Part shown: positions 40,936-42,825 of the stretch, in pieces
Numbering within the stretch: position 1 is the stretch's first letter
How the letters are laid out: each line of letters starts with the position of its first letter
Origin: Brevundimonas sp. LM2
GTDB taxonomy: Bacteria; Pseudomonadota; Alphaproteobacteria; Caulobacterales; Caulobacteraceae
Length of the DNA: 64,000 nucleotides
Reading direction: 5' to 3'
NCBI RefSeq assembly: GCF_002002865.1
Contig: NZ_CP019508.1
Location: forward strand, 2,398,501 to 2,462,500
Translations under genes and position numbers: made by a program
The notes under the pieces: model-generated
Database searches by the model: none
Told to the model about the DNA's origin: nothing
Seen by the model: the letters and a program-made list of their open reading frames with translations, nothing else

Positions 40936-42825
40936 TTAGTGCAAAAGTCGAAAGCGCAGCGTTCCGGCCACACTTTTCAGCACACGGAGCGCCTGGGGGT
41001 CGTAGTCGCGGTCGACGTCGGTGATGACGTAGCCGGTCCGCTCGTCGGTCTTCAGATGCTGGCCGAGGATGTTGAGCCCGGCCGCCGACAGCTCCCGGTT
41101 CAACTCGGCCATGACGCCCGGCTGGTTCCTGTGGATGTGGAGGATCCGGTGCCCGCCCGAGACGTCGCTGAGCTGCACGTTCGGCAGATTCACGCAGAAG
41201 GTCGTGTCGCCCCGGTTCAGGTAGCCCAGCAGGCGTTCGGCGGCGAACTCGGCGATCGCCTCCTGCGCCTCCTCGGTCGAGCCGCCGATGTGCGGGGTGA
41301 GGATGACGTTCTTCAGACCCATCAGCGGGCTGTCGAACGGATCGGCATTGGTGCGGGGCTCGTCGGGGAACACGTCCAGCGCGGCCCCGCCGACCCGTCC
41401 CGACCCGATGGCCTGCGACAGGGCCCCGATGTCGACGACATGGCCGCGCGACAGATTCAGGAACAGGGTGCCCGGCCGCATGGTCTGGAACTGGGCGGCG
41501 CCGATCAGATTGGTGTTCTCGCGCCGACCGTCGACGTGCATCGAGACCACGTCCGACTCGGCCAGCAGCGCGTCGAGGCTGCGCATCCGGCGGGCATTGC
41601 CGAGCGCCAGCCGCTCAGACAGGTCGTAGAACAGGACCCGCATGCCGAGGGCCTCGGCCAGCACCGACAGCTGAGAGCCGATGGCGCCGTAGCCGACGAT
41701 GCCCAGGGTCTTGCCGCGCAGCTCGCGCGAACCCTCCGCCGATTTGTTCCATTGGCCGCGGTGCATGGCGGCGGACTTGTCGGCGACGTCGCGCATCAGG
41801 GTGATGGTTAGGCCGATGGCCAGTTCCACCACGCTGCGGGTGTTGGAATAGGGGGCGTTGAACACCGCCACGCCTCGGGCCGCCGCCGCGTCCAGATCGA
41901 TCTGGTTGGTGCCGATGCAGAAGGCCGCGATGGCCAGCAGGCGATCCGCCTCGGCCAGGACCCGTTCGGTGACATTCGTCTTGGACCGGATGCCCAGAAC
42001 ATGCACGCCCTTGATGGCCGCGATCAGGTCGTCCTCGTCCAGAGCCCCCTTGCGGGTCTCCACCGAATAGCCGGCCTCCTCCAGCCGCTCGACGGCGGCG
42101 GGGTGGATGTTCTCCAGCAAAAGCATACGAATCCGGTTGCGCGGATAGGACCAGCGGCCGGCCAGGCCTTCGGCGTGCAGCAACTCGTCCATGGACGAGG
42201 CCTCTCCGTCGGCCACAGCGACCACGGTCTCGCGCCGCGCGACCTCGGTGAAGGCATAGAATCGGTCAGCGGCTCCCGCCAGCTTGACCTCGGCGTCGTT
42301 CCAGCCGTCGCCCACCATGACGACGGGGCCGGTCAGGCCCAGCGCCTTGATGACTGTGGGCTTGCCGTTCTCGCGCGACAGGGGGTTGGTCTCGTCGACG
42401 CCCGTCACCCGGCCCTCGGCGTCGTAGGTCAGGTCGTTGCAGAGGACGCGATCGGCCGAGATCCCCAGCCGCTCGGCGATGGGGGCGATGATTTCGCGGA
42501 AGCCGCCGGACAGGATGTAGAGATGGTCGGCGTTGTCATGGAAGAAGCGCAGATTGCGCCGAACGGAGGGGGTGCCCTCCTCCAGGATCCGGTCCGCCAG
42601 AGCCAGAACATTGGCCCGGGTCAGGGGGATCAGGGCCAGACGCGCCCTTAGCGACTGCCCGAAGTCCAGTTGGCCCGACATGGCCTGGTCCGTGATCGCG
42701 GCAATCTCGGCCCGGACGGCGACCGCATCGGCCGAGCCCTCCAAGGCGATATCCGCCAACGCCTCGAGGGTCTCGATGCGGACCAGGGTGGAGTCGAAGT
42801 CGAAGATCAGCGTCGGAGCGGCCAT
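40936..42825 (-). CDS. Fused phosphoserine phosphatase / 3-phosphoglycerate dehydrogenase
   Basis: 629 aa, two complete enzymes in one chain. Residues 1-215 are a HAD phosphatase of SerB type: nucleophile Asp9 and Asp11 ('FDFDSTLV'), Ser106 ('LSGGF'), Lys155/160 and 'GDGWND' 172-177. Residues 231-629 are an E. coli-type SerA: NAD site 'GIVGYGAIG' 375-383, catalytic Arg460, Glu489 and His512 ('PHIGG'), then an ACT domain about 558-629 for serine feedback. These are the first and last steps of serine synthesis; the middle enzyme SerC is not nearby. The frame is uninterrupted. Confidence 0.9.
   Translation of the reverse strand: MAAPTLIFDFDSTLVRIETLEALADIALEGSADAVAVRAEIAAITDQAMSGQLDFGQSLRARLALIPLTRANVLALADRILEEGTPSVRRNLRFFHDNADHLYILSGGFREIIAPIAERLGISADRVLCNDLTYDAEGRVTGVDETNPLSRENGKPTVIKALGLTGPVVMVGDGWNDAEVKLAGAADRFYAFTEVARRETVVAVADGEASSMDELLHAEGLAGRWSYPRNRIRMLLLENIHPAAVERLEEAGYSVETRKGALDEDDLIAAIKGVHVLGIRSKTNVTERVLAEADRLLAIAAFCIGTNQIDLDAAAARGVAVFNAPYSNTRSVVELAIGLTITLMRDVADKSAAMHRGQWNKSAEGSRELRGKTLGIVGYGAIGSQLSVLAEALGMRVLFYDLSERLALGNARRMRSLDALLAESDVVSMHVDGRRENTNLIGAAQFQTMRPGTLFLNLSRGHVVDIGALSQAIGSGRVGGAALDVFPDEPRTNADPFDSPLMGLKNVILTPHIGGSTEEAQEAIAEFAAERLLGYLNRGDTTFCVNLPNVQLSDVSGGHRILHIHRNQPGVMAELNRELSAAGLNILGQHLKTDERTGYVITDVDRDYDPQALRVLKSVAGTLRFRLLH

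Follow-up and report, generated by a model that had tools for sequence, protein, structure and literature searches.

A natural SerB-like/SerA fusion in Brevundimonas sp. LM2, very probably a bifunctional enzyme of serine synthesis, and its displacement of separate serA and serB genes in the family

Phosphoserine phosphatase (SerB) and phosphoglycerate dehydrogenase (SerA) are normally separate enzymes, which catalyze steps 3 and 1 of serine synthesis. A preliminary description of the 64-kb stretch of Brevundimonas sp. LM2 DNA analyzed here (the window) placed both in a single uninterrupted 629-codon frame and took it for a natural fusion, and the locus raises the question of whether one protein does the work of two enzymes. 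Judged from its sequence and from those of its relatives, it is very probably a bifunctional serine-pathway enzyme, with steps 1 and 3 on one chain, that replaces the long SerA and the standard SerB.

The coordinates and length first given for the frame are exact and its strand is minus: the gene runs from an ATG start at 42825 down to 40936 over 629 codons, and on the plus strand the frame at 40936-42825 is interrupted by stops. Its features, and the sequence upstream of it, are the following.

40936..42825, minus strand: SerB'-SerA fusion gene, 629 amino acids, stop codon at 40936-40938 (ORF list, Pfam and NCBI models)
42196..42813, minus strand: HAD-IB phosphoserine-phosphatase-like domain, residues 5-210 (D9, D11, E18, R62, S106, G107, K155, D173, D177)
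42136..42195, minus strand: linker between phosphatase and dehydrogenase, residues 211-230, with boundaries inferred from model edges and alignment
41191..42135, minus strand: substrate- and NAD-binding domains of 3-phosphoglycerate dehydrogenase, residues 231-545 (G378/G380/G383, R460, E489, H512)
41284..41814, minus strand: NAD-binding domain, residues 338-514, which the NAD-less Bacteroidota relatives described below lack
40939..41190, minus strand: ACT domain, residues 546-629, with serine-site residues H565, N567 and N585 (E. coli site as in PMC6300728)
42826..42876, no strand: 51-bp gap between the fusion gene and the upstream ORF
42877-44358, minus strand, the same as the fusion gene: upstream ORF, short-chain dehydrogenase-like by eye

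Four Pfam models score over their cut-offs on the protein, namely HAD (PF12710, residues 7-178), 2-Hacid_dh (PF00389, 235-546), NAD-binding (PF02826, 338-514) and ACT (PF22629, 561-622); the general ACT model PF01842 stays below its own (20.9 vs 27 bits). No Rfam leader reaches the gathering threshold upstream of the gene, and no serC leader RNA does so in the 64-kb window. The next gene downstream (39026-40915, minus strand) is also a 629-codon ORF, by eye a secreted esterase-like protein with a C-terminal autotransporter-type part, and the equal length is a coincidence.

The C-terminal half is, by its domains and residues, a complete SerA with an ACT domain, as first proposed. The NCBIfam model for E. 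coli-type SerA, PRK11790, spans residues 224-629 with 638 bits (cut-off 404), and a Foldseek alignment gives about 51% identity to E. coli SerA. The NAD motif GxxGYGxIG lies at 375-383 as described, and R460, E489 and H512, also named then, align with the catalytic residues R240, E269 and H292 of the E. coli enzyme. With substrate-binding, NAD-binding and ACT domains and no ASB domain, this half is of Type II in the scheme of dehydrogenase Types I-III (PMC6300728). H565, N567 and N585 align with H344, N346 and N364 of the E. coli serine site, and a Gly-Gly hinge, which matters for serine control in E. coli SerA, is found at 557-558 (site positions and hinge numbering from PMC6300728). Predicted structure models (pTM 0.60 and 0.48) speak to domain folds only and not to domain orientation; full E. 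coli SerA chains match the fusion model at an rmsd of about 16-17 in Foldseek.

For the N-terminal half, the preliminary description had claimed a full SerB-type phosphatase. Its catalytic landmarks hold up: D9, D11, S106 and the GDGWND motif at 172-177 are all found on alignment to human phosphoserine phosphatase, so that the catalytic aspartates D9, D11, D173 and D177 are present, and E18 and R62 align with E29 and R65, the two substrate-contact residues of the human enzyme. The word full is too strong, since the NCBI SerB model TIGR00338 gives 91 bits against a cut-off of 144. The HAD-IB model TIGR01488 scores over its cut-off (62.4 vs 45 bits), and the best solved relatives by alignment are phosphoserine phosphatases. 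We therefore class this half, on these scores and residues, as a divergent HAD-IB phosphatase.

If one chain serves for both enzymes, its genome should be considered for others. The Brevundimonas sp. LM2 genome is a single contig of 3.56 Mb, 99.94% complete. In a search of it with the SerB model the fusion is the best match at 95 bits, and the remaining matches reach at most 21 bits. Three other 2-hydroxyacid dehydrogenases were considered as a second SerA; they score at most 221 bits on the SerA model (cut-off 454) and, as the three candidates on which the E. coli-type model was run, at most 158 bits on that model (cut-off 404), so that none qualifies by score. One of the three adjoins a gene that by eye resembles glycerate kinase. 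The look for separate serA and serB genes that had been proposed thus found no other protein over the SerA cut-off (for the E. coli-type model, among these three candidates) or the SerB cut-off. The earlier statement that the fusion lacks SerC is also correct, SerC being encoded elsewhere in the genome (499 bits, over cut-off). That serC (L018 / L028) directly follows a DnaJ-like ORF and is separated by 78 bp from a purA-like gene after it, both recognized by eye; no serA adjoins it, and no serC leader RNA was found at this locus (L028) at the gathering threshold.

The family of Brevundimonas sp. LM2, Caulobacteraceae, offers a sample of 149 genomes in which this replacement can be followed. 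A full-length fusion occurs in 49 of them, by genus in 23/24 genomes of Brevundimonas sp. LM2's own genus, 22/22 of g14, 2/2 of g3, 1/1 of g7 and 1/1 of g9, and in both genomes of genus g17 the two parts are adjacent genes. Long-type SerA (E <=1e-100) is present in 91/149 genomes and SerB over cut-off likewise in 91/149; neither is found in any of the 51 genomes with the fusion (49) or the split form (2). The fusion has thus displaced the long-type SerA, encoded beside serC, and the standard SerB within the family. In relatives with the long-type SerA, serC adjoins serA at seven of eight loci, the eighth ending at a contig edge, and the serC leader RNA RF00517 is present at L120, the one long-SerA locus scanned, where serC adjoins the long serA. 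We had assumed that in relatives the gene for the long SerA is flanked by serC and purA; this was not supported, there being no purA match at these eight loci within the <=1.5 kb available on each side.

Seven family genomes have, by these criteria, neither fusion or split form nor long SerA; SerB over cut-off is present in four of these (G044, G050, G053, G062) and absent from three (G016, G092, G120). G092, of the same genus as Brevundimonas sp. LM2 and 99% complete, and G016 (98% complete) yielded no fusion, long SerA or SerB, and it is possible that they are natural serine auxotrophs or use an unknown serine route. The case of G092 weighs against the bifunctional reading. A larger fusion suspected in G191, with its 643-codon frame, was discarded, as the SerA match starts at residue 16 of a 423-aa ORF.

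How far the fusion reaches was the other point proposed for follow-up. Searches at E <=1e-60 found full-length matches in 3/385 genomes of the class and 6/398 of the phylum, all in the genus of LM2, with SerA alone in many of the others, and gave a first impression of a fusion confined to Caulobacteraceae; loci elsewhere and in Bacteroidota rule this out. A scan of named genomes for the phosphatase part, made with two peptide patterns and so not a census, gave 99 loci, of which the best 80 comprise 61 fused (two of them running off the contig within SerA), six with adjacent genes and 13 without SerA inside the stretch examined. The last group also weighs against bifunctionality, as does the score of the phosphatase half below the SerB cut-off. 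Outside Caulobacterales the fused form is found in Cytophagales, in Chitinophagales and in the isolate Sandaracinomonas limnophila (L143), and full-length fusions occur in 26/395 genomes of Bacteroidota, the phylum of Sandaracinomonas. Fused loci also stand on contigs labeled as MAGs of Planctomycetota and Gammaproteobacteria, the individual labels including Gammaproteobacteria (L145), Phycisphaerae (L169), Limnohabitans (L170) and Kuenenia (L196). Labels of this kind can be in error; L170 clusters with L236, a protein from the Bacteroidota phylum, at 100/100. Twenty genomes were picked from the 80 loci (18 outside the family and two Brevundimonas; 14 fused and six adjacent), and none has a SerB over cut-off, each giving one match to the SerB model (genome completeness not given).

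Two Bacteroidota loci (L223, L224) carry a phosphatase of this group alone, 221-222 aa long, with no SerA match in the ORFs read within about 2.3 kb downstream. At L117:1626-4280 (G601), an 884-codon open frame ends in SerA, with about 475 codons ahead of the SerA part; this may be a further fusion, or the frame may be open by chance.

Phylogenetic analysis sets both halves apart from their stand-alone counterparts. The 33 SerA rows fused with or adjacent to this phosphatase split from 28 chosen stand-alone SerA rows at 100/100, and the phosphatase group (42 rows) splits from five standard SerB of the family on a long branch, also at 100/100. The SerA tree needs four changes between fused and unfused states and does not give their order. 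The two-gene form of g17, in which the genes overlap by TTGA (stop TGA, start TTG; L109:3225-3228 and L110 around 2341), nests inside the family's fused clade in both trees, with different nearest neighbors in each; this makes it less likely to be the ancestor of the fusion and suggests, as far as the trees go, fission after fusion. The other adjacent forms, those of Gemmatimonadetes among them, may be either ancestral or products of fission.

A second kind of departure from the fusion is found in Bacteroidota. In 11/395 genomes the match is limited to the phosphatase plus the first lobe of SerA, and the frames have 432-501 codons. Nine of these were fetched (L217-L222, L225, L244, L245) and all lack the NAD domain, seven having been read directly and two (L244, L245) judged by length and by alignment or clade. 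The seven proteins read have 431-456 residues, and their ACT domain comes straight after the SerA N-lobe, which itself follows the phosphatase. Used as the query of a protein search, one of the NAD-less proteins gave at least 120 near relatives; the named ones among the matches listed are nearly all Pedobacter, under the names HAD-IB family phosphatase, phosphoserine phosphatase and D-3-phosphoglycerate dehydrogenase. In an alignment of 127 such sequences, 120 of them close matches from that single search, the positions of the NAD site and of the catalytic Arg, Glu and His are gaps in all 127, and the Gly-Gly hinge of E. coli SerA is absent from all 127. The phosphatase residues D9, D11, E18, R62, S106, K155, D173 and D177 are kept in 127/127, as are H565 and N567 of the serine site, and N585 in 126/127. 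In a tree of phosphatase and ACT parts, 13 NAD-less rows form one clade (100/99) within the Bacteroidota fusions, with the fused L235 as neighbor (98/94), which places the NAD-less form as a derivative of the fusion whose dehydrogenase was lost in one Bacteroidota clade. At equal phosphatase identity (55-60%), the N-lobe is 69% identical in fused pairs (n=53) and 29% between NAD-less and fused proteins (n=83), and the corresponding ACT values are 64% and 60%. Since the N-lobe has drifted while the ACT domain and its serine site were retained after dehydrogenase loss, the simplest reading gives ACT some function for the phosphatase. This suggests, without proving, that ACT also controls the phosphatase, and lends indirect support to the early suggestion that serine bound to ACT might affect the phosphatase of the fusion. 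The lost hinge counts against unchanged serine control there; among fused relatives it is partly conserved (G557 in 174/207 and G558 in 129/207).

From family knowledge of both halves, the proposed mechanism would run as follows. The C-terminal Type II 3-phosphoglycerate dehydrogenase would make phosphohydroxypyruvate (step 1), the separate SerC would make phosphoserine (step 2), and serine would be released by the SerB-like HAD phosphatase at the N-terminus (step 3). The chain is expected to form a tetramer through its NAD and ACT domains, and, as in E. coli SerA, serine would inhibit the dehydrogenase by binding between ACT domains. The phosphatases would ride on the same oligomer, and for that reason the ACT state may, speculatively, set their activity as well, and serine control of step 3 is likewise speculative. 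That one ACT serine sensor switches the first and the last enzyme, with the SerA remnant of Pedobacter-type proteins (lobe plus sensor) regulating their phosphatase, is a tentative proposal to which we give somewhat less than an even chance.

It must be weighed against fusion for co-expression only, in which both halves are active and independent and the dehydrogenase alone responds to serine, as E. coli SerA does; this stands just short of an even chance. Physical fusion is not indispensable, since the parts are separate, adjacent genes in g17, where they overlap, and in 6/80 loci, and the nesting of the g17 pair inside the fused clade in both trees indicates that fusion can be undone. The incomplete conservation of the hinge in many relatives points the same way. 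Direct channeling between the two activities is not expected, because step 3 does not take the product of step 1 as its substrate, and this again fits mere co-expression. A passive tether would not predict, however, that NAD-less relatives keep ACT and a serine site on a phosphatase.

Bifunctionality itself would fail if the HAD half had a different phosphate ester as its substrate, such as histidinol phosphate, with some other phosphatase finishing serine. Its score below the SerB cut-off would allow this, and in four bacteria genes annotated as phosphoserine phosphatase have been proposed to encode histidinol-phosphate phosphatases (PMC5764234). Against it, the best solved relatives are phosphoserine phosphatases, E18 and R62 are kept in 207/207 fused sequences, and SerB over cut-off is absent from all 51 family carriers and all 20 picked genomes. 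We judge another substrate improbable.

Still less credence is due to the idea that one of the halves has no catalytic activity and acts as a regulatory or structural part; the decay of the dehydrogenase part in the one Bacteroidota clade speaks for it. The catalytic residues are kept in both halves. Among 207 distinct fused sequences (from 216 pooled, 96 from loci and 120 close matches, many not independent), R460, E489, H512, the NAD glycines, H565, N567 and N585 are invariant on the dehydrogenase side and K155, D173 and D177 on the phosphatase side; D9 and D11 are present in 206/207 (one gap), S106 in 205/207 (two Thr) and G107 in 180/207. Five close pairs (L030, L031, L032, L172, L178) show purifying selection on both halves, with dN/dS of 0.13-0.28 for the HAD part, 0.05-0.17 for the dehydrogenase and 0-0.21 for ACT; the 20-codon linker has 0.04-0.42 in these pairs, and a more distant sixth pair (L114) gives 0.45-0.61. 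In addition, the genome holds no other protein found over the SerA cut-off (for the E. coli-type model, among three candidates) or the SerB cut-off. A sequencing or assembly artefact joining two genes, the error that would have undone the first description, can be set aside as having a negligible chance, with the full-length join seen in many independent genomes (49/149 of the family, 61/80 loci and 26/395 Bacteroidota genomes).

The fusion appears to be an undescribed architecture in which two well-known enzymes are combined. E. coli SerA (Type II; PDB 1yba, 1psd) has the same catalytic and serine-site residues and lacks the N-terminal phosphatase that the fusion carries. Human phosphoserine phosphatase (PDB 1nnl, 6hyy) and bacterial SerB (TIGR00338) share with it the HAD-IB class, the catalytic Asp pairs and the residues equivalent to E18 and R62, whereas the fusion's phosphatase group is divergent from standard SerB, below its cut-off, and fused or adjacent to SerA in 67/80 loci. 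Mycobacterium tuberculosis SerB2, an ACT-bearing phosphoserine phosphatase (ACT-ACT-phosphatase) inhibited by L-serine (PMC10564941), is a precedent for ACT control of such an enzyme; unlike the fusion it has two ACT domains, no SerA part and other serine-contact residues. An algal phosphatase/glycerol-3-phosphate dehydrogenase of 624 residues likewise has a SerB-like HAD domain at its N-terminus with an NAD dehydrogenase joined to it, but its dehydrogenase is of a different family and it makes glycerol by consecutive steps (PMC7468427). The PGDH-PSAT of oomycetes and brown algae is also a natural serine-pathway fusion, though eukaryotic, mitochondrial and joining steps 1 and 2 rather than 1 and 3 (PMC2705460, PMC5715807).

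In the open-access literature, to the extent accessible and with subscription papers, supplements and preprints outside its scope, no description of a SerA-SerB fusion was found. In the available part of the review of dehydrogenase Types I-III (PMC6300728) neither fusion nor fused occurs, and the word phosphatase, used three times, means the separate enzyme; the main text of a gene-fusion survey (PMC4921024) contains none of phosphoserine, serine, serA, serB and phosphoglycerate. PMC5764234 mentions, in its accessible part, five unnamed fused candidates, which could include such a fusion. Homologs abound in databases, mostly labeled phosphoglycerate dehydrogenase: the best 120 of 7998 scored are 84-100% identical over 98-100% of the fusion, the closest named ones among the matches listed being Brevundimonas. 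Since the architecture is thus already deposited under dehydrogenase names, the novelty lies in its recognition, in the displacement of SerA and SerB and in the NAD-less branch that retains ACT. Other names mislead further (P0005, P0100, P0129, P0204 and others), some fusions being recorded as erythronate-4-phosphate dehydrogenase or as glyoxylate/hydroxypyruvate reductase B, and proteins of about 220-280 residues with the phosphatase alone being misnamed D-3-phosphoglycerate dehydrogenase.

Recognition of the fusion adds a phosphatase-bearing architecture to dehydrogenase Types I-III (PMC6300728), corrects the annotation of fusions and of some phosphatase-only relatives now named D-3-phosphoglycerate dehydrogenase, and explains the missing over-cut-off SerB in the Brevundimonas-type genomes examined. 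The NAD-less relatives make ACT control directly testable, because the phosphatase is the only enzyme left in their chain. If ACT does control both activities, a single ligand site would gate the first and the last step of a whole linear pathway.
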